Assembly (NCBI RefSeq): GCF_006717095.1
Contig: NZ_VFQE01000001.1
Location: 1,054,001 to 1,118,000 of the forward strand
DNA: 64,000 nucleotides
Origin: Blastococcus colisei
GTDB lineage: Bacteria > Actinomycetota > Actinomycetes > Mycobacteriales > Geodermatophilaceae
Direction of reading: 5' to 3'
The notes beneath the pieces are model-generated. The model had not been told where the DNA came from. It made no database searches and worked only from the letters and a program-made list of their open reading frames with translations. Position 1 is the stretch's first letter; every line of letters starts with the position of its first letter. Positions 35,669 through 62,214 of the stretch are shown piece by piece. A program made the position numbers and the translations under genes.

Positions 35669-35818
35669 TCAGTACGCCTGGGTGCCCATGCTCTATACCC
35701 TGTGGGGACAGACTCTAGGAGGGGACTTCGTACACCCGGGCCCTTCCGAGCGTCCCAAGGAAGTCATCATCATCGGGGTCGCAAACGCCACATATCGCCC
35801 CCGTCTTGCCGCACTGAC

Positions 35819-35840
35819 ATTACGAGGCGCCTGCCGTAAT
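35819..35840. promoter_or_regulatory. Inverted repeat upstream of the candidate defence operon
   Basis: ATTACG at 35819-35824 pairs with CGTAAT at 35835-35840, with AGGCGCCT between them as an inner palindrome. It lies 8 bases before the -10 box at 35849, where a bound repressor would block RNA polymerase. The regulator is unknown. Confidence 0.45.
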
Positions 35841-35848
35841 ATAGGGGC

Positions 35849-35866: not shown

Positions 35867-36043
35867 ATGTCCAATATTGAACAGCAAATTCTCATCGACT
35901 TCGTGTCGGAACTCGTCACGCAAGGCTCAGTTCCTGCATCACTAATCTCCGAGCTGCATGATCGGTTGACTTCCGAGAAGTTGCCGAGCGCCGAGATGCT
36001 CCTAACGGTCCTGCGTGACGCAGCCAAGGAGGGAACGCCTTGA
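35867..36043 (+). CDS. 58-residue first gene of the ATPase-SIR2 operon
   Basis: A small, mostly helical protein starting MSNIEQQILIDFVSELVTQG and containing LISELHDRLTSEKLPSAEM. It carries a good AAGGAGGG near its 3' end that serves the next gene, and its TGA overlaps the ATPase start (TTGA). This tight coupling supports a real gene. Its position and size recall the small middle component of ABC-three-component conflict systems, but no specific family is recognised. Confidence 0.65.
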   Translation: MSNIEQQILIDFVSELVTQGSVPASLISELHDRLTSEKLPSAEMLLTVLRDAAKEGTP

Positions 36044-38493
36044 TTCAGCTTGAGGCCATACACATTGAAGAGTTTCGCGGCATTCGCAAACTCGACCTTA
36101 AGCTGGACTGCAAGTCGTTCGTCGTACATGGCCCGAACGGCTCAGGGAAAAGCGGGGTGGTGGATGCGATCGGCTTCGCAATCACCGGTACGATCAGTCG
36201 GCTTAGCGGTCCCGGAACCGGCGGCTTGACGGTTCTCAGACACGGACCGCATGTCCACCGACGCGACGATCCCGCTGCCGCCAAGGTCTCTCTGACGATC
36301 CGCGATACCACCACGGGCAAGAGTGCAGTGCTCAGTCGCACCATCAAGGCGCCAGGCAGCTTCACGCTGACGCCGGACACAACCGAGATGCGCGAGGCAT
36401 TGAGGTCCGTACAGGATCATCCTGAGCTGACGCTCTCCCGTCGTGAGATTATCAAGTTCATCCTCGCCGAGTCAGGCAAGCGGGCTGCAGAGGTCCAGGC
36501 TCTCTTGAAACTTGAGGGCCTCGAAGAACGTCGGAAGACACTGAAAACCACCTTGTCTCTGGCGTCAAGGGACGTTACTGGGTCGAAAGCCTCACTTGAG
36601 GACGCCAGGGACGGTGCGCGCAGGCATTTCGATGTAGCCGATCTCGACGCCACAGAAATCATGAAGGCCGCAAACAAGCGGCGTGATTTGTTGAAGCTTA
36701 CGCCGCTCCAAGAACTCAGCCTTGACACGGACTTCAAGCAGGGGCTTGAACAAGAGGAGACGCAGACGACTTTCAATAAGGCTTCTGCGACTCGAGACGT
36801 GGAAGCCTTGGTGAAAGCCTTAGCGCACTCGGAAGTCATGAACGACAACATCGCGGCGCTGCGACCTGCACTGAGCGATCTCGCGAGCGACGTGACCATC
36901 CTTGAGGCGTTGCAGCAGCGGGAGTTCGTGGCCAGCGGTCTTGACTTGGTCATCGATGCAGCGGTGTGCCCGCTCTGCGACACCGCCTGGGAGAATGTTG
37001 ACGCGCTCCGTCAGCACCTCCAGGAGAAGATCGCGCGTTCCGACGCTGCTGCAGCGCTACAGAAGAAGATCATGACGGCCGGCACGGCTCTGATAGCACA
37101 GATTCGCAGTCTTCGAGGGCTCGTGCGAGCTACCCAGCCTCACGCTCTCGCCCATGGCGACGTGCCGCTGCAGCTTGCCTTGGAGCAGGTCTATGAGGAT
37201 TTTCTGACCGTGGAGACAGCGTTGGGGAGCCCACAGGGAGCGCTTGGGCAGAAGGAACGTGTCGACAGTGACTTGCTTCGTATTCCGGCCGACCTGCAGG
37301 ACGGGCTCGCCGGCTTGATCAGGACACTGAGGGCTCTGCCGGACAACAGCGCCCGCGTGGATGCGCAGAGCTACCTAGTTCTGGCGGACGAGCGCTGGTC
37401 TCAGCTTCGGCTCGCCAAGGCCAAGTATGGGCGCTCCATGGCGGTCAAGTCATCTGCACAGACCATCTACGACGCCTACTGCAAGAGCGTCGACACCGCA
37501 CTTACGAATCTCTACGAAACGGTAGAAGGCAGCTTCAGCGAGTTCTACCGGCAGATCAACTCAGACGACGAGGCCGCCTTCAAGGCAGAGCTTGGACCAA
37601 GTTCCGGAAAGCTCGACCTTGTGGTCGACTTCTACGGGCTCGGCATGTTTCCGCCCGGGGCCTATCACAGTGAAGGCCACCAGGACGGCATGGGCGTCTG
37701 TCTGTACCTCGCTCTCGTCAAGCAGCTGCTCGGCGACAGCTTCCGCTTCGCTGTGCTCGACGACGTCGTCATGTCGGTCGACAGCAACCACCGCCGGCAG
37801 TTCTGCGAGCTCTTGAAGGAGCGCTTTCCCGACGTCCAGTTCGTGATTACTACCCACGACGAGATCTGGGCCAAGCAGATGCAGTCCTCCGGCCTTATCT
37901 CGCGCACGGGTCACGCCCGCTTCTACGGCTGGAACGTCAACGAGGGTCCCGCCGCCGAACAGGGCGTGGATCTCTGGGACCGGATTGACGCAGACCTCGC
38001 CAAGGACGACGTAGCCGGCGCCGCGCACAAGCTGCGCCGCGGCCTAGAAGCCATCATGACCGACCTTGCCGAAGCGCTCCGGGCCAGAGTTGCGTATAAG
38101 GGGGACGCAAAGTATGAGCTCGGCGAACTTCTGGGATCGGTCACGGGGCGACATGGAGACTGGCTAAGCAAGGCGGCGAAGTCTGCGAACAGCTGGGGGA
38201 ATGCCGCGGCGAAGCAATCGGTCGAAGAACTCAAGGACTCGCGAAGTAAGGCAGTGCTCGCTCAGCAGAATGAGAACTGGGCCGTCAATGCGCTCGTGCA
38301 TTACAACGAGTGGGCCTCCATGTCTAAGGCCGACTTCGTCCCAGTCGTGAAGGCTTGGCGGCAGTTTCTCGAACTATTCCAGTGTGACAACGCAGCCTGC
38401 GAGTCCTGGATCTACGTGTCGGGCGCGGCTGGCAAAGAGGAGACCCTTCGGTGCGACTGCGGAGTTTATAACCTCAACCTCGTAGGTAAGTAG
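36040..38493 (+). CDS. Rad50/SMC-like AAA (ABC-type) ATPase with zinc hook and C-terminal zinc ribbon
   Basis: An 817-aa protein from a TTG at 36040. Residues 31-38 are Walker A (GPNGSGKS), within a Rad50-like start EEFRGIRKLDL. Long coiled-coil-like arms flank a CPLC motif (Cys310, Cys313), a zinc-hook arrangement. The signature-like SEGHQDGMGVCLYLALVKQL lies near 544-562, Walker B AVLDDVVMSVD near 571-581 and the switch His in VITTHDE near 602-608. About 200 further residues follow, ending with a cysteine pair CDNAAC (782-787) and RCDCGV, likely a zinc ribbon. This extension is not part of RecF or Rad50. Likely a sensor ATPase of a conflict system. Confidence 0.8.
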   Translation: MIQLEAIHIEEFRGIRKLDLKLDCKSFVVHGPNGSGKSGVVDAIGFAITGTISRLSGPGTGGLTVLRHGPHVHRRDDPAAAKVSLTIRDTTTGKSAVLSRTIKAPGSFTLTPDTTEMREALRSVQDHPELTLSRREIIKFILAESGKRAAEVQALLKLEGLEERRKTLKTTLSLASRDVTGSKASLEDARDGARRHFDVADLDATEIMKAANKRRDLLKLTPLQELSLDTDFKQGLEQEETQTTFNKASATRDVEALVKALAHSEVMNDNIAALRPALSDLASDVTILEALQQREFVASGLDLVIDAAVCPLCDTAWENVDALRQHLQEKIARSDAAAALQKKIMTAGTALIAQIRSLRGLVRATQPHALAHGDVPLQLALEQVYEDFLTVETALGSPQGALGQKERVDSDLLRIPADLQDGLAGLIRTLRALPDNSARVDAQSYLVLADERWSQLRLAKAKYGRSMAVKSSAQTIYDAYCKSVDTALTNLYETVEGSFSEFYRQINSDDEAAFKAELGPSSGKLDLVVDFYGLGMFPPGAYHSEGHQDGMGVCLYLALVKQLLGDSFRFAVLDDVVMSVDSNHRRQFCELLKERFPDVQFVITTHDEIWAKQMQSSGLISRTGHARFYGWNVNEGPAAEQGVDLWDRIDADLAKDDVAGAAHKLRRGLEAIMTDLAEALRARVAYKGDAKYELGELLGSVTGRHGDWLSKAAKSANSWGNAAAKQSVEELKDSRSKAVLAQQNENWAVNALVHYNEWASMSKADFVPVVKAWRQFLELFQCDNAACESWIYVSGAAGKEETLRCDCGVYNLNLVGK

Positions 38494-38685
38494 AGGCGAT
38501 GCAGCGCACTGATCGTGTCGCCGGTTGGACGGTCGAAAGTCTCGCCCCCTGCGCCTCGGTCCCGAAACTGTCAGCGCTGCCTGAGAGAGTCGGGATGCCC
38601 GCAGTTTTTGTGAGACTCGAAGTAGGTAAGCTGGCACGCCGCTCTCTGCATGGCGGTTTACCTGTGGACGAACATTGGAGGTTGA

Positions 38686-39939
38686 ATGTCCGATCACTAT
38701 GTTTTGCTGGGAGCCGGGTTCTCTCGCGCAATCTGCGACGAGATGCCATTGCTGCATGACTTATCCGAGCAGGTATTCACCGAGTTGGGTTTAAGTAGGG
38801 ATGCGTTGGCGCCGTTCGGTGGAGATCTGGAGCAATGGCTGTCTCACTTATCGAGCAATCAACCCTGGCTCACCGACCAGGAGAACCTGCGCAACTTAGC
38901 TACCTTTAGAGATGCAAGCGAAGCTGTGCACACCTGCATCGTTCGATCCGAGACAGTTGCCGTCGCCTCGCCGATCCCTTCCTGGCTGACGCGGTTGATC
39001 TGGCATTGGTGCACACTGAATGCCAACATCGCGACGTACAACTACGACGTCTTACTTGAGACGAGCGTCTCGCACCTGAGCCTGACGAGAACGTGGGCGG
39101 ATCTCTACGCCATGCCAATCGCCGAAAGGAGGGCGCCAGGGGATGTATCGCAGTACCCGACCGAGCAGCCGCCCAGCTCCGTCCTTCGACTCTTCAAGTT
39201 GCACGGCTCAACGAACTGGTTCTACGGCGGCCCTGACGCACCTGTGACCGACCGAGTGGTCATGACCCAGGCTTCTGGTTGGTGGCCTGGCTCGCCAGCG
39301 GAACACTCTCTTCCTCGTTCCTCGGGTCGCCAGACCAACCTATACGACGATCTCCTGCCGTTGATCATCCCACCGACCGGTACGAAAGGCGGCTATTACG
39401 GTAACCGGTCGCTGCGAGCACAGTGGCAGACGGCATTCACGGCTCTTAAGGCCGCCAAGAGTCTCACTATCATCGGCTATTCCTTCCCGCCGAGTGACCT
39501 GGCGGCAAGACACTTCATTGCGAGCAGCCGACTAGCGGTTCCCGTCGCAGTTGTTGACAGGCGTCCTGAGGTCGCGGCTACCGTCGAAGCACTTCTGCCG
39601 TCGGCAGCAATCTCCGCATACTCCGGCGAGCAGGCGATAGAGAAGTACGTTGACGACACATGCGGTGATGTCGTCCTCTGGGGTGTGCAGCACAACGCCG
39701 CAGGACGCCGATCTCGGTTACAGGTTAACGGCATCGACATTGACCTGAGCGGCGAGGTCAACCCGTACGATCCCGATTTGCCTACGGGGGACCCAGATCC
39801 AGCGAGTACGTGGATAGCGCAAGAAGTGGAGCGCAAATACCCTGGCGCAACGCGTGCTGCATTAAGGGATCACTGGCCACGCAGCAATGACGGAACTCTG
39901 TGGCAGGGCATTTACACCGGCCCTCGGCAGTCGGAGTGA
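38686..39939 (+). CDS. SIR2-like NAD-binding protein (probable conflict effector)
   Basis: A 417-aa SIR2 family protein. LLGAGFSRA at 7-15 is the NAD-binding glycine motif, YNYDVLLE near 118-125 holds the catalytic Asn (119) and Asp (121), KLHGSTNW carries His173, and GYSFPPSD is the later nucleotide site. Defence SIR2 proteins (as in Thoeris, DSR, SIR2-APAZ) hydrolyse NAD to stop infected cells. The C-terminal part (about 330-417) matches nothing I know. GGAGG precedes the ATG. It lies 192 bases after the ATPase gene in the same direction; that gap shows no gene. Confidence 0.82.
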   Translation: MSDHYVLLGAGFSRAICDEMPLLHDLSEQVFTELGLSRDALAPFGGDLEQWLSHLSSNQPWLTDQENLRNLATFRDASEAVHTCIVRSETVAVASPIPSWLTRLIWHWCTLNANIATYNYDVLLETSVSHLSLTRTWADLYAMPIAERRAPGDVSQYPTEQPPSSVLRLFKLHGSTNWFYGGPDAPVTDRVVMTQASGWWPGSPAEHSLPRSSGRQTNLYDDLLPLIIPPTGTKGGYYGNRSLRAQWQTAFTALKAAKSLTIIGYSFPPSDLAARHFIASSRLAVPVAVVDRRPEVAATVEALLPSAAISAYSGEQAIEKYVDDTCGDVVLWGVQHNAAGRRSRLQVNGIDIDLSGEVNPYDPDLPTGDPDPASTWIAQEVERKYPGATRAALRDHWPRSNDGTLWQGIYTGPRQSE

Positions 39940-39970: not shown

Positions 39971-40432
39971 CTAATCCCCGTGGGTAAGCATGCCCAAGTT
40001 GATAAGCCTGAATTCCATCGCGCTGCGACTAACCTGAAACTTGCCGGCCAGGACGTCGACTACCTCGCTGTCGGTTCGGTGGCGGCCGCGTACGATCCGA
40101 TGCAATTCGTCGGTCACTGCAGCGCTTGGCATAAGCAAGCCCGCTGCGAATGCGTTCGCCTCCATCTCCTCCCGGTCCGTGGCTAGGGACGAGACCGAAT
40201 CTCGAAAATTGACACGGACAGCGCGATCGACAACCAAGCGCTTGCCCTTGTGTAGGACCAAATGCCCAAGTTCGTGCGCGATAGTGAATCGTTGTCGCAC
40301 TTCGGCATTGTTCGCGTTCACGCCAATAATCGGTGTCTCGCCGGGCTCTCGAAGTAGGAGACCGCTGACAGGCGCCGATGTCAGTAGACGGCAACGAAGC
40401 CGAACTCCTCCAGATTCTGGACGAACGGTCAA
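39971..40432 (-). CDS. ImmA/IrrE family metallopeptidase, N-terminus apparently truncated
   Basis: A 153-aa protein with the zinc motif in RFTIAHELGHLVLHKG and the third-ligand region EEMEANAFAAGLLMP. ImmA-type proteases cleave XRE repressors of mobile elements. The usual first 30-40 residues before SGLLLREPGETPIIGVN are missing, and the only start is a TTG at 40432, just where a decayed HTH remnant begins upstream. No XRE partner adjoins it. It may be a surviving fragment of an older element. Confidence 0.7.
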   Translation of the reverse strand: MTVRPESGGVRLRCRLLTSAPVSGLLLREPGETPIIGVNANNAEVRQRFTIAHELGHLVLHKGKRLVVDRAVRVNFRDSVSSLATDREEMEANAFAAGLLMPSAAVTDELHRIVRGRHRTDSEVVDVLAGKFQVSRSAMEFRLINLGMLTHGD

Positions 40433-44243: not shown

Positions 44244-46043
44244 CTAGCCAGCTGAAGCGAAGCCATCGTCCGCTGCCGCATGTTCGAGCACCGACCGGAT
44301 GAGGTACCAGTGTTCATCGTCGACCGGCTCGAACCAGGCCACCTGTTCGCCCGGAGAGTTTCGGTTGGCCGCCAGTTCGGCACGGTTCGCCAGCCGGATC
44401 CGCGGCGCGTAGGTTGCCAGCCCCGACACGGTATAGGAGCGACCGTCGAGCACGAACTCGGCGGAATGGGTTATGTACAGCGCACCCCCCGCTTCGGCAA
44501 TCGATGCCAGGAATCTCGGCACTCCTCCTGGCACGACCTTGGCGCTCAGTGCGGTGTAGGGCAACTGGGCTCGCTCCCCTGACAACGCGTCGGCGACACT
44601 GAGCAGGTCTCGCACCACGTCCTGCGACAGCTCCTCCGTGGGGATGGGAATCAGCGTCCGCAAGTGCCGCTGGAGCGCGACCAGTGCCCCGACAAGGCGG
44701 CACAGCGGCCCAAGATCGTCTGGCCAGGTCGTGTCCGCTTGGAACCCGCCCAGCTCCGCCGGCCCAGCGCATAGCGTCAGTCGGTCGCCGGGTTGCAGCG
44801 TCGCCAGGAACTGTAGGGCCGGCAGGACTTCATGAGGACGTCGCCCAGCCACCGAGCGAAGGGTGACGTGGAGCTGTCCACGGACAGTGCCGTCCTCACG
44901 GAGGACCAGACGCACCGCAAGCGCGTCGCTGGCGTCGGCACCCAGCATGGTGCTGCCGTGGCTGCCACCGACGCGCCTCGTGAAGGTCACGGGGAGCGTG
45001 ACGGCGGGGCGATCAGCCGTCGATGGCTGGAGCGTCAGAGACGCCTGCAAAGGGAAACCCTGCGTGACGGGAATGCTCAGCAGCTCCAGGTCGCCGGCTC
45101 GGTCGTCGTCACCCAACAAGCGCTGCGTCGCCTCGGACGCCGCTACGACGTCGAAGCGACTGACATAGCGCCCGGGGATAGCTACCTCGCCACCCACCTC
45201 CAAGGTCTCCCTGAGCCGGTCCGCGATGTCGCGCGCTTCCGGATCGTCAGCCGGGAAGTAGAACGTCGGAGTGATTGAGATCGGGTCGTCGACGGGCGCT
45301 TCCGGGTGCCTGGGCATGAGCGTCCGCATGCGCCCGCGCGGGCCGGAGCTGAACTCCCATCGCCAGTACGGGGAGATCTCGTCGCCCCGCTCGAGCAAGG
45401 CGTCGAGCCGCTGCGACAGGTCGTCGCCCGAGGCCAGGACCGCCTGCTCCATGTTGAATTGGCGCGCTCGCTCCAACAGTCCGTACGTTTCGCCTTCGAT
45501 GTACGAGATCAGATCGTGCCGGCCAGCGATCCGGCGATCGAGCCAGTCGCGTCCCCACCACTCCAGAGCAACCCCGGGAGCAATGTCGATCAGACCCGTC
45601 AGCCAGGCCAGCTCCTTGGGGGTGGGGACGGACCGGGTGATCAGCACCCATCGAGTCGGTGCGTGGAGGTTGACCGCCCGGGCCAGCGACCGCTTCACTT
45701 GGCGCCTTTGACTGGTGACGAGACGTCCACAGAACGACTTCACCTCGAAGATGACGAGTCCGTCGGGGCTATCCCACCGCATGTCCTGCGCTTCATCACC
45801 GCCCGCGCCGTCGATGGCAGTGACACTGTCGCCAAGTTCATCGCGCAGCAGCATCTGTACCACCCGCTCCAGCCGGTGCGGGTCGAGATCGTTCCATTCG
45901 AGCACGGCCTCAGTCTGCGGCAAGGCACCGACAGCATTGCCCAGACTCGGCCGGTTGTCGTCTTCGGTCGCAGAAATTGGTGGTGACCGTACGTCACCGA
46001 CTGGGCCGCCGCGCCTACCGCTTGGATAGACCTTGCATCCCAT
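44244..46043 (-). CDS. Large protein with a PD-(D/E)XK nuclease-like N-terminus
   Basis: A 599-aa protein. Residues about 48-130 look like an Mrr/restriction-endonuclease fold: a helix (DPHRLERVVQMLLRDEL), then an Asp/Glu-rich turn (DGAGGDEAQDMRW) and IFEVKSF with the E-x-K pair, followed by RRQVKRSLARAVNL. The remaining 450 residues are mixed alpha/beta with no motif I know. No helicase or ATPase is adjacent. Its XRE neighbour and island location fit a restriction or conflict role, but this is inference. The open frame starts at 46043; an internal start nearer the conserved DLDPHRLER is possible. Confidence 0.6.
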   Translation of the reverse strand: MGCKVYPSGRRGGPVGDVRSPPISATEDDNRPSLGNAVGALPQTEAVLEWNDLDPHRLERVVQMLLRDELGDSVTAIDGAGGDEAQDMRWDSPDGLVIFEVKSFCGRLVTSQRRQVKRSLARAVNLHAPTRWVLITRSVPTPKELAWLTGLIDIAPGVALEWWGRDWLDRRIAGRHDLISYIEGETYGLLERARQFNMEQAVLASGDDLSQRLDALLERGDEISPYWRWEFSSGPRGRMRTLMPRHPEAPVDDPISITPTFYFPADDPEARDIADRLRETLEVGGEVAIPGRYVSRFDVVAASEATQRLLGDDDRAGDLELLSIPVTQGFPLQASLTLQPSTADRPAVTLPVTFTRRVGGSHGSTMLGADASDALAVRLVLREDGTVRGQLHVTLRSVAGRRPHEVLPALQFLATLQPGDRLTLCAGPAELGGFQADTTWPDDLGPLCRLVGALVALQRHLRTLIPIPTEELSQDVVRDLLSVADALSGERAQLPYTALSAKVVPGGVPRFLASIAEAGGALYITHSAEFVLDGRSYTVSGLATYAPRIRLANRAELAANRNSPGEQVAWFEPVDDEHWYLIRSVLEHAAADDGFASAG

Positions 46044-58870: not shown

Positions 58871-59527
58871 ATGCGTTATCAATCATCACCGGTGAACCAC
58901 AACCCGCTCAACGTCTTGACCAAACTCCGTCAGCTCGTTCCTAACCGGCCCCTGCGCTTCTCCGAAGCGATGCATCTGGCCGAACTGCAAGCCCGGCGGC
59001 TGCTGGAGCTCGCTGGTGTAACCGCGCTGCCCGTCTCCTGCCGCGTCATCACGGATCTGCCGCAGATCCGGATCGTCGACGATCCGCAACTGCCACTTGC
59101 CGGCGCCAGCCACTGGGACCCCGCGGCCCGTCAGTGGGTTATCCGCCTCAATCCCACCGACTCGGCGGCGCAGCGTCGCTTCACCCTGCTGCACGAGTTC
59201 AAACACATCCTCGACTTCGGCGGCCCGGGCCTCCTGCCAATCGGCCTCGACCAGCACCAGCTCTGCACTGACCAACTGGCCGAGCAGATCGCCGATCACT
59301 TCGCCACCTGCGCCCTGCTGCCCAAGCGGCTGGTGCGGGAGGCCTGGGCCGCCGGCACGCCCGCGATCGCAGCCCTGGCTACCCGCTGCGACGCGCCGCC
59401 CAGCGCGACGCGAAGCCGACTCATCCAGCTCGGCCTGATTGACCCCGCCACGCGCACGGGCCGGCCGCATGAGCATCCAGATGACATCTCCCCGTCCAAT
59501 ACCGAAGCGACTGAGGTAGCGGCATGA
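58871..59527 (+). CDS. ImmA/IrrE family metallopeptidase
   Basis: A 218-aa protein with the zinc site LLHEFKHILDFGG (HExxH) and LAEQIADHFATCALLPKRLV, the third-ligand helix. Upstream LAGASHWDPAARQWVIRLNP is the usual strand region. A C-terminal helical domain (IAALATRCDAPPSATRSRLI) resembles the repressor-contact part of ImmA. It is coupled to the recombinase gene by an ATGA overlap, so the regulator, its protease and the recombinase form one operon. Confidence 0.88.
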   Translation: MRYQSSPVNHNPLNVLTKLRQLVPNRPLRFSEAMHLAELQARRLLELAGVTALPVSCRVITDLPQIRIVDDPQLPLAGASHWDPAARQWVIRLNPTDSAAQRRFTLLHEFKHILDFGGPGLLPIGLDQHQLCTDQLAEQIADHFATCALLPKRLVREAWAAGTPAIAALATRCDAPPSATRSRLIQLGLIDPATRTGRPHEHPDDISPSNTEATEVAA

Positions 59528-62214
59528 CGTCCCAGACTGACTCACTCCCGCAGGCGGCAGCCGTCTCCTACCTGCGTGTCTCCACCAAGGAGCAGGCCGA
59601 GCGCGACGGCGACCCCGAGGGCTATTCGATCCCGGCGCAGCGGGACGCCAATCGCCGTAAGGCCGAAGCCCTCGGCGCGGTCATCACCGCCGAGTTCGTG
59701 GATCGGGGCGAGTCCGCCCGCTCGGCTCACCGGCCGGAGCTACAGCGGATGCTGGCGTACGTCTTGGAAAACCCGGTCGCCTTCGTCGTCGTCCACAAGG
59801 TCGACCGGCTGGCCCGCAACCGCATCGACGACGTCGAGATCAACCTGGCACTGCAGGAGGCCGGGGTGACGCTGGTGTCGGCTACCGAGAACATCGACGA
59901 GACGCCCAGCGGCATGCTGCTGCACGGGATCATGAGCACCATCGCCGAGTTCTACTCGCGCAACCTGGCCAACGAGGTCGTCAAGGGCATGAGCCAGAAG
60001 GCTCGCACCGGCGGCACGCCGAACCGGGCGCCGCTCGGCTACCGCAACGTCCGGGCCGTCAACGACGAGGGTCGCGAGGTCCGCACCATCGCAGTCGACC
60101 CTGAGCGCGGCCCGCTGATCACCTGGGCCTACCGGGCCTACGCCACCGGCAACTGGACGCTCCTCAAGCTGGCTGCTGAATTGGAAGTCCGCGGCCTGCG
60201 CACCGTCGCCACCCCGGCGCAGCCCAGCCGGCCGGTCCGGCCGAACATCGTCCACAAGATCCTGACCAGCCCCTACTACAAGGGCGAAGTCATCTGGCGC
60301 GGCGCCAGCTACCCCGGCCGGCACACCCCGCTGATCGATGAGGTGACTTGGCAGCGGGTGCAAACCGTGCTGTCGACGCACCGGGTGGGGGAGAAGCAGC
60401 GGGCCCACCCGCACTACCTGAAATCGACCGTCTTCTGCGGCACCTGCGGTAGCCGCTTTGTGGTCAACCTGTCGACAAACCGCTACGGCGCCAGCTACCC
60501 GTACTTCATGTGCCTCGGCCGACACCAGAAGCGGACTGGCTGCACCCAGAAGGCGCTGCTCATCGCGGCCGTGGAGGAGCGCGTCGAGGACTTCTACGCC
60601 GACGTTGAACTACCTGCCGAGCTGCGGGAGCAGATCGAGCGCTTCCTCCGCGACGAGCTCGCCACCTCCCGTGCCGCGGCCGAACGCGAGCACGGCGCGC
60701 TCACCACGCAGCGGCAGCGCCTGATCAACGAACGGGCCAAGCTGCTGCAGGCCCACTACGCCGGTGCCGTCCCGGTCGACCTGTTGAAGGTCGAACAGGA
60801 CCGCATCGCCGCGCAGCTGGCCCACATCGAGGACCGGCTGCAGCGCGCATCGGAGGCCGCGGAAACCGTTGAGGAGAGCCTGACACTGGCCCTCGACTTG
60901 CTCAGCGACTGCCACGAGGCTTACCGCCGGGCCAGCGACAGTGTCCGCCGGCTCTACAACCAGGCCTTTTTCGAGCAGATCTTTTTCTCCGACGAGGGGA
61001 TCAGCGCCGTCCTCGCCGAACCCTTCCGCACTCTCATCGGGCCGGAGGTCGTTCACGAGGTCCAGACGGGCACGGACGACGCCGACACGGCGGCCGAAGG
61101 GCCGGTGGAGACATCCGATGACGGCCTGGACACGTCGCCGGGCGCCTGGACGGCCGAGGACCTCCGCCTCATCCGGACCTCGCCGGTCCGGCCACCACGG
61201 GGCACAACGAAACAACCTGCGCCGCATTGGTCATGCGGCGCAGGTTGGAAACAACACACGTTGGTGCCCCCGGCAGGATTCGAACCTGCGCCCCTGCCTC
61301 CGGAGGGCAGTGCTCTATCCCCTGAGCTACGGGGGCTCGTCCGTTCGTGCGGGACGAACGCTATCAGCCGCCGGACGACGTCCGGACGCAGGCCCTCAGG
61401 GGGCCGGCAGCGGGGTGCCGCCGCGCGCCGCCAGCATGTCGGCCATCAGCGTCGTCTCGGCCGTCTGCGACTCGGCGATCGCATTCGCGAGGTTGCGCAC
61501 GACGTCGGTCTCGGCGTTCTCCTCGGCGTACTCGGCCATGCCCAGGCCACCCTGGTGGTGGCGGATCATGAGCCGGAGGAACTCCACGTCGAAGGCGTTT
61601 CCCGACAGCGACCGGAGCTGGGCGAGCTCTTCCTCCGTCGCCATCCCGGGCATGACTGCGGTGTCCACGTCCATGGCGTGGCCGGAGTGCCCGCCCGCGT
61701 GGTCCATCCAGCCCATGACCTCACCGCCGGTCGGGGAGTAGCCCCAGAGGGACAGCCAGCCCTGCATGCGGCCGACCTGGTTCGTCTGCGTCGTCCCGAT
61801 GTCGAACGCCAGTCCGCGGACGGCGGGGTCCTCGCTGCGGTCGAGGGCGGCGTTCGCCATCTCGACGCCCTGCAGGTGGTGGAGCGCCATGTCCCGGGAG
61901 AACCCGACGTCGACCGCACTGGGCTCGGCTGCGTCGTCCCGGCCGAGGCCCAGCGCCACTGCCAGCCCGCCGCCCAGCAGGACCAGCCCGACGGCGATGA
62001 CCGCCAGCAGGACCACCCGCAGAGGACTCCGGGTCGATGTCGGTTCGTCGGCCGTGGTCACGGTCCTCCTCGGTGTCGTCCGGTGCTCTGGCAGCGGGTC
62101 AGGGGGCGGCCGTCTCGGCCGGCGCCTCGGTGCCCGTCGCGCCGTCGGGCTCCTCGAGCAGCGGGTCCGCGGCGAACGTGGGGTTCTCGCAGCTGGCACC
62201 GGGCTCAGGAGTGA
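59524..62214 (+). CDS. Large serine recombinase; frame runs out of the island through tRNA-Arg
   Basis: The catalytic domain (about 13-165) has SYLRVSTKEQ with the nucleophile Ser20 and VVVHKVDRLARNRIDDVEIN. The recombinase domain follows (RAPLGYRN, ILTSPYYKGEVIWRG), then a zinc ribbon (Cys305, 308, 330, 340) and a coiled-coil arm (about 360-450). Recognisable sequence ends near residue 530-560. The frame then crosses the tRNA terminator at 61214, the tRNA itself from residue 580 (VPPAGFEPA, the telltale antisense tRNA translation), and the antisense of the DUF305 gene, stopping at 62214. The last 300 or so residues are therefore host sequence, not a domain. Confidence 0.85.
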   Translation: MTSQTDSLPQAAAVSYLRVSTKEQAERDGDPEGYSIPAQRDANRRKAEALGAVITAEFVDRGESARSAHRPELQRMLAYVLENPVAFVVVHKVDRLARNRIDDVEINLALQEAGVTLVSATENIDETPSGMLLHGIMSTIAEFYSRNLANEVVKGMSQKARTGGTPNRAPLGYRNVRAVNDEGREVRTIAVDPERGPLITWAYRAYATGNWTLLKLAAELEVRGLRTVATPAQPSRPVRPNIVHKILTSPYYKGEVIWRGASYPGRHTPLIDEVTWQRVQTVLSTHRVGEKQRAHPHYLKSTVFCGTCGSRFVVNLSTNRYGASYPYFMCLGRHQKRTGCTQKALLIAAVEERVEDFYADVELPAELREQIERFLRDELATSRAAAEREHGALTTQRQRLINERAKLLQAHYAGAVPVDLLKVEQDRIAAQLAHIEDRLQRASEAAETVEESLTLALDLLSDCHEAYRRASDSVRRLYNQAFFEQIFFSDEGISAVLAEPFRTLIGPEVVHEVQTGTDDADTAAEGPVETSDDGLDTSPGAWTAEDLRLIRTSPVRPPRGTTKQPAPHWSCGAGWKQHTLVPPAGFEPAPLPPEGSALSPELRGLVRSCGTNAISRRTTSGRRPSGGRQRGAAARRQHVGHQRRLGRLRLGDRIREVAHDVGLGVLLGVLGHAQATLVVADHEPEELHVEGVSRQRPELGELFLRRHPGHDCGVHVHGVAGVPARVVHPAHDLTAGRGVAPEGQPALHAADLVRLRRPDVERQSADGGVLAAVEGGVRHLDALQVVERHVPGEPDVDRTGLGCVVPAEAQRHCQPAAQQDQPDGDDRQQDHPQRTPGRCRFVGRGHGPPRCRPVLWQRVRGRPSRPAPRCPSRRRAPRAAGPRRTWGSRSWHRAQE
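61214..61246 (-). terminator. Intrinsic terminator of tRNA-Arg
   Basis: Perfect 14-base arms AACCTGCGCCGCAT (61214-61227) and its complement (61233-61246) enclose a 5-base loop. On the - strand it starts 16 bases after the tRNA CCA and is followed by GTTTCGTTG, a weak T tract. It belongs to the chromosome, so the island ends to its left. Confidence 0.85.
61262..61336 (-). tRNA. tRNA-Arg (anticodon CCG)
   Basis: A 72-base tRNA with CCA encoded. The acceptor GCCCCCG pairs with CGGGGGC; the D arm is GCTC-AGGGGATA-GAGC; the anticodon arm is CTGCC-CTCCGGA-GGCAG, giving CCG, which reads CGG arginine codons; the T arm is GCAGG-TTCGAAT-CCTGC. All stems are perfect. The 3' end faces the genomic island. 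Confidence 0.97.
61396..62061 (-). CDS. DUF305 family protein, membrane-anchored
   Basis: A 221-aa protein with an N-terminal membrane anchor (VVLLAVIAVGLVLLGGGLAV) and an extracytoplasmic DUF305 domain: FSRDMALHHLQGVEMANAAL, then LRLMIRHHQGGLGMAEYAEE. The paired HH motifs and Met-rich GHSGHAMDVDTAVMPGM suggest copper or other metal binding; the family is ferritin-like. GAGGA precedes the GTG at 62061. It follows the DUF3105 gene by 37 bases, so the two probably form an operon. Confidence 0.9.
   Translation of the reverse strand: MTTADEPTSTRSPLRVVLLAVIAVGLVLLGGGLAVALGLGRDDAAEPSAVDVGFSRDMALHHLQGVEMANAALDRSEDPAVRGLAFDIGTTQTNQVGRMQGWLSLWGYSPTGGEVMGWMDHAGGHSGHAMDVDTAVMPGMATEEELAQLRSLSGNAFDVEFLRLMIRHHQGGLGMAEYAEENAETDVVRNLANAIAESQTAETTLMADMLAARGGTPLPAP

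Follow-up and report, generated by a model that had tools for sequence, protein, structure and literature searches.

In a 64,000-nucleotide stretch of the Blastococcus colisei genome (the window; contig NZ_VFQE01000001.1, positions 1,054,001 to 1,118,000), the gene for a 58-residue protein runs into the gene for an 817-residue Rad50-like ABC ATPase. We hold it as all but certain that these genes are a conserved pair; the pairing is near-obligate, and the ATPase motifs and zinc hook are invariant. With slightly better than even confidence, we read the pair as a two-gene module, in which a partner of about 58 residues accompanies a Rad50-like ATPase fused to a HEPN-like ribonuclease (RNase) domain and a zinc ribbon. 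A role in defence is highly likely, and the pair is probably an anti-phage suicide switch. The first-pass annotation of this DNA had proposed a sensor-plus-NADase system with the downstream SIR2-like protein as effector. Its three open reading frames (ORFs; 58, 817 and 417 residues) were borne out (Table 1). The likelier effector, however, is the tail of the ATPase itself, not the product of the SIR2 gene next door, and a small, easily missed partner is defined.

The small gene and the ATPase gene

ATPase relatives were drawn from genome contigs (4 loci), further genomes, plasmids and viral contigs. This gave 26 distinct loci (the window, L002-L006, L007/L008, L009, L010-L023, L028, L075, L087 and L088), with the partial match G629 left out of the count. 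In 25 of the 26, a small ORF of 53-69 residues ends 4-20 bases inside the ATPase gene. The lone exception (L009/L071) lies inside a type I restriction-modification (R-M) operon and had no small-protein match. A leave-one-out test was carried out with hidden Markov models (HMMs) built from 19 of 20 small proteins. Searched against 13,302 six-frame segments, these models recovered the held-out ORF at E<=1e-5 for 18 of the 20 proteins, near-identical relatives helping some of these recoveries; of the other two, L017 reached 0.088 and L023 did not appear. A smaller model, built on 7 members, picked up 6 of the remaining 13 at E<0.002, along with L019. L023 and L017 were at E 1 and 2 with this model, and five had no listing at E<=10. 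Against the 20-member model, the L019 protein, which is outside the 20, gave 1.1e-12 and the L028 protein just 0.17. The window's small protein matched no family in Pfam, PADLOC or NCBIfam, and no Pfam family matched more than one of the 20. Judged by these profiles, the small proteins constitute a family.

The ATPase aligns with its relatives over its full length at 22-59% identity. The annotation's description of it as an 817-residue Rad50-like ATPase with a CPLC hook proved accurate: Walker A, hook, ABC signature, Walker B/D-loop and a TTHD motif were all found, with an Asp at the Walker B position where Glu is usual. Full-length alignment of the ATPase and recovery of held-out small proteins place the first two ORFs beyond chance. 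Pairwise distances of the small protein and of the ATPase head (first 640 residues) were correlated (r=0.82 over 23 pairs), exceeding all 5,000 permutations. This correlation shows that the pair moves together, and shared descent alone can yield it. The annotation had also coupled a small helical protein to the zinc-hook ATPase, and that pair does recur widely, in many cases close to defence genes. Two of the 26 loci have a disrupted ATPase frame: it is split in genome G067 (L007/L008, also L008/L070) and altered near its end in Phaeobacter M631 (L021).

Going by sequence matches, the pair is common to bacteria and archaea. The ATPase is rare: it was found in 3 of 98 genomes at 1e-40 and in 2 of 396 genomes of its phylum at 1e-60, the window's own genome included in both counts. 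Two other phyla gave 2 of 251 (the second match partial) and 2 of 286, each counting the centre genome. Among plasmids, 27 of 72,556 records matched at E<=1e-10, and 18 of the 27 cover at least 80% in one place. Viral contigs held 38 related loci, of which one (L028) is full length and lies beside phage-like genes by eye; none of 50,697 phage records carried a relative.

The C-terminal domain and the SIR2-like gene

The C-terminal domain is modular. The annotation had noted an unusual extension of 200 residues ending in a zinc ribbon; the extension does end in four cysteines, but it spans about 180 residues (638-817). It is missing from two loci (L023 and L088), which both keep the small gene. 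The Arg, Glu and His of its two motifs are invariant in 22 of 22 tails against a background of drift through most of the domain, as is more often seen in active sites than in scaffolds. The Glu-to-His spacing is 80-87, and the loop that holds N750-x3-H754 was modelled with low confidence. The canonical HEPN R-x4-6-H motif is absent from the 22 tails, N-x3-H standing in its place; Table 1 of PMC3710099 includes some HEPN families that likewise lack the Arg. We favour, by a modest margin of confidence, assignment of this domain as a HEPN-type RNase, and it is a better effector candidate than the SIR2-like protein. Searches of the domain against Pfam, PDB sequences and BFVD returned nothing usable. 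None of the listed matches of the fold searches named PrrC, RloC or DUF4145, which excludes nothing.

The SIR2-like protein scored 24.3 bits against Pfam SIR2_2 (cut-off 24.5) and 39.3 bits against a PADLOC SIR2 model. The Asn, Asp and His that the annotation had seen are in place, with GAGFS, TYNYD and KLHGS intact to the eye; we take these to be the NADase motifs. We searched the ATPase flanks in L002-L023 by blastp at 1e-3, covering about 1.5 kb in L006-L009 and as much as 8 kb in the others; L028, L075, L087 and L088 fell outside. No SIR2 relative was found in any of these 22 other loci. Seven other ATPase-bearing genomes searched whole had no close relative, only one remote partial match (31%) on another contig. 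Relatives were found at 59% identity in one (G024) of the other 145 genomes searched and at 40% on a Curtobacterium plasmid. At 1e-40 no ATPase match came up in G024, the plasmid is absent from the 27 ATPase-positive plasmid records, and neither SIR2 neighbourhood holds an ABC ATPase; the neighbours in G024 are a HIRAN-domain protein and a protein without a match. No second instance of the order small protein-ATPase-SIR2 was found. Thus the co-occurrence of the three genes elsewhere, which the annotation had proposed as a check, was observed for the small gene and ATPase but not for the SIR2-like gene. The SIR2-like protein was rejected as the effector on these grounds, and we are strongly confident that its gene is independent of the pair.

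Known systems and rival explanations

The closest analogy is with RloC and PrrC. The ATPase shares with them a Rad50-like head and a C-terminal R-x3-E followed by a His, and with RloC a zinc hook in the coiled-coil insert (CPxC, invariant in 19/19). In addition, one copy of the pair's ATPase (L071) belongs to a type I R-M operon, with Fic and BRO genes next to it. This setting is near the company described in the HEPN survey, where PrrC and RloC occur in R-M operons with RhuM-like or Fic/Doc genes. The differences are substantial, however. The window's ATPase missed Pfam AAA_13 (PF13166; 16.3 bits, cut-off 36). Eight of 19 family members matched AAA_13 at E<=1 (best 4.2e-11), none of 61 relatives did so at 1e-20, and 1 of 151 genomes of another phylum did. 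The published spacing is Arg-x3-Glu-x36-52-His, and it measured 38-43 in six AAA_13 tails, compared with 80-87 here. Likeness to the AAA_13 tails spans just 11 residues, and the pair has an extra zinc ribbon and a dedicated small gene. Membership of RloC was rejected on the AAA_13 miss and the spacing.

The annotation's own comparison, a three-gene system like Lamassu or ABC-3C with the small protein as LmuC, the ATPase as LmuB and the SIR2-like protein as an NAD+-depleting LmuA, is improbable in our estimation. LmuB is the best PADLOC profile (73.8 bits over ATPase residues 2-611, a score listed with no cut-off), and in the Foldseek search with the whole model LmuB 9hqu ranks second. Both ATPases have a CPxC hook and a small partner, and the three window genes are co-directional; the consulted passages of the Lamassu review (PMC10586767) include a sirtuin domain among the effectors and describe LmuC as small. 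Against this stand the flank results for SIR2, its relatives that occur without the ATPase and the 192-base gap before its gene. No other recurring effector gene, and no conserved separate one, was seen in the gene tables; the effector-like domain is fused to the pair's ATPase as a modular tail. Furthermore, the Walker B Asp is followed by a second Asp (19/19) instead of the Gln that those passages give as general in LmuB. Lamassu membership was rejected for the absent conserved effector, and the profile similarity remains. DndD/DndE and CxC-ABC/DndE (Pbe) likewise combine a coiled-coil ABC ATPase with a small gene that diverges alongside it, as described in passages of PMC10853773. Judging by its length of 53-69 residues, the present partner can probably not accommodate the two ribbon-helix-helix repeats found in DndE, and the pair differs further in its hook (CPxC, not CxC) and its fused tail. 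We did not assign the pair to RloC, PrrC, Lamassu or DndDE because their defining features were absent or not settled.

A single-gene ABC ATPase of 888 residues on a viral contig (L034:6749-9415) resembles the ATPase in its CPAC hook and in the register of its tail R-x3-E and N-x3-H; relatives occur in 25 plasmid records, and 19 of those plasmids are typed as conjugative. No zinc ribbon was seen by eye in the tails of this family. It carries a fused N-terminal helical domain of about 85 residues, which is not detectably related to the small protein. The reading of this domain as a fused small protein was dropped, a profile comparison giving no signal (11.6 against 8.3 reversed).

The ABC ATPase survey that is reportedly likeliest to list this clade is that of Krishnan et al. 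2020. In the titles, abstract starts and passages of the open-licence literature covered (passages of PMC2610378, PMC3710099, PMC10853773, PMC12839542, PMC12137116, PMC10586767 and PMC12409363), the pair is unnamed; an entry in Krishnan et al. 2020 is possible. The annotation's statement that the locus fits no known system therefore stands for exact matches in PADLOC, NCBIfam, Pfam and these passages. It does not stand for the broad kind, since an ABC ATPase fused to a C-terminal HEPN RNase has been described. What sets the pair apart within that kind is the dedicated small gene, the ribbon and the spacing.

The most serious rival to an RNase tail is that the tail is a non-catalytic helical and zinc-ribbon nucleic-acid binder, the pair acting on DNA directly by Rad50-like tethering or end sensing, or signalling to changing neighbours. 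We consider this unlikely, though the strongest of the alternatives. Several results weigh on its side and against catalysis: the HEPN fold and profile evidence is weak, with low hhalign probabilities; some natural copies lack the tail; and comparison of the AAA_13 and L034 tails failed to link the two. GmrSD-type, R-M or BREX genes also adjoin some copies. It accords poorly, however, with the invariance of the motif residues amid drift, and no one neighbour recurs in most loci. A toxin-antitoxin pair, in which the small protein directly blocks the RNase tail and the main role is plasmid or island upkeep, would suit the small-then-large order with translational overlap, the many plasmid copies and the small, rapidly diverging partner. 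Both tail-less copies retain the small gene, though, so that the small protein more likely serves the ATPase; an 817-residue ABC ATPase is an unusual toxin body, and the type I R-M copy has no small gene. We regard this explanation as the least probable.

We propose, by analogy, that the pair may work like RloC. The ATPase would dimerise through its zinc hook and, with the small subunit, would sense either invading DNA or that a partner restriction system has failed. The small protein would be a dedicated subunit, either a loader or a safety catch. Once triggered, the tail would cut RNA, halting translation and aborting phage growth. As in PrrC and RloC, tRNA would be the likeliest substrate, although this target is a tentative suggestion in which our confidence is well below even. 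A broader formulation is also possible, with confidence somewhat short of even. In this formulation, a bacterial and archaeal immune module would use a subunit of <70 residues to serve a Rad50-like DNA sensor. That sensor would set off its fused RNase, which would represent a new HEPN-like subclass (R-x3-E ... N-x3-H plus zinc ribbon). The module would thereby turn a DNA signal into RNA destruction, as a backup slotted into R-M, BREX and GmrSD-type loci, and some archaea would have lost the RNase while retaining the sensor pair. If the reading of the pair as an ATPase with an RNase tail is right, the ABC-HEPN RNases gain a branch that has its own dedicated subunit, and the question of what holds RloC and other Rad50-like sensors off and switches them on would become testable. 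The natural tail-less copies offer a direct route to splitting sensing from killing.

Neighbouring genes and locus setting

Neighbours were tabulated for 15 plasmid loci (L010-L018, L020-L023, L087 and L088) as raw counts with no background rate. Named defence-type genes lie near the pair in 6 of the 15, and none were counted in the other 9. These are a GmrSD-type DUF262 gene (L010), DarT and a TIR protein (L011), an N-6 DNA methylase (L013), a haloarchaeal BREX-5 locus with the pair between pglX and pglZ (L017:2024-10667), DUF499/DUF1156 (L018) and AbiE/Abi genes (L020). Across the 15 tables, no neighbour is shared by the majority. Three extra loci, picked for interesting-looking neighbours, held type I HsdM/HsdS with Fic and BRO (L071), GmrSD_N (L076) and a type ISP R-M protein (L019). 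A GmrSD_N (DUF262) gene lies directly upstream of or overlaps the small gene in two distant lineages (L010:4049-6004 and L075:572-1520). The gene directly downstream of the pair at L016:8511-12233 matches Pfam PIN-TPR-GreABC (66 bits) and was excluded from the defence neighbours. In a tail-less archaeal locus (L023:5822-10674) genes for a queuosine precursor transporter and a phospholipase D-like protein come after the pair; queuosine is a modification of the anticodon loop.

Table 1. Features of the locus, numbered along the window
Feature	Position	Strand	Conservation or basis
Promoter-like site CTGACA-17-TAATAT, overlapping an inverted repeat	35814..35842	+	Consensus scan; weak evidence
6-base inverted repeat ATTACG/CGTAAT	35819-35824 and 35835-35840		Overlaps promoter-like site
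Small partner protein gene, 58 aa	35867..36043	+	ORF upstream of ATPase in 25/26 loci; held-out HMM test
Shine-Dalgarno-like AAGGAGGG for ATPase, within small gene	36026..36033	+	Direct reading
Rad50/SMC-like ABC ATPase with zinc hook and C-terminal extension, 817 aa, TTG start	36040..38493	+	
Walker A GPNGSGKS, residues 31-38	36130..36153	+	G31, P32, N33, G34, G36, K37, S38 invariant (19-row alignment)
Zinc hook CPLC, residues 310-313	36967..36978	+	C310, P311, C313 invariant in 19/19
ABC signature SEGHQD, residues 544-549	37669..37686	+	
Walker B/D-loop LDDVVMSVD, residues 573-581	37756..37782	+	D574, D575 invariant in 19/19
Modular C-terminal domain, residues 638-817: helical bundle (HEPN-like by motif), then zinc ribbon	37951..38490	+	
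R666-x3-E670 on long helix	38035..38049	+	R and E in 22/22
N750-x3-H754 ahead of last long helix	38287..38301	+	H in 22/22; N in 20/22 (H in two)
Zinc-ribbon cysteines C782, C787, C805, C807	38383..38460	+	22/22
SIR2-like protein, 417 aa, adjacent, probably independent of pair	38686..39939	+	Not conserved with pair

The overlap of the small gene and the ATPase gene is 4 bases, the ATPase start lying over the small-gene stop. The consensus scan of the region found 3 promoter-like sites against 1.0 expected. In 2-kb blocks, G+C is 0.59-0.67 at 36-52 kb compared with 0.72-0.73 at 30-34 kb, and it returns to near 0.66-0.72 at 52-62 kb, where a TraG/TrwB-like protein, a replication-relaxation protein, a DNA methylase and a serine recombinase are encoded. 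G+C and gene content together suggest that the stretch around the locus is acquired, mobile DNA. The serine recombinase ORF (59524-62214, 896 residues) spans a tRNA-Arg(ccg) on the opposite strand (61262-61336); its tail is probably non-coding, and the island may end at this tRNA. A search for a direct repeat of the tRNA-Arg region gave just chance-length matches (15 and 13 bases), neither of which is positioned like an attachment site. Also within the window, a 599-residue protein on the minus strand (44244-46043) weakly matched PADLOC models of short-Argonaute-associated TIR-PNTD proteins (E 3e-4), and an IrrE/M78-type metallopeptidase gene (39971-40432) is convergent with the SIR2-like gene.

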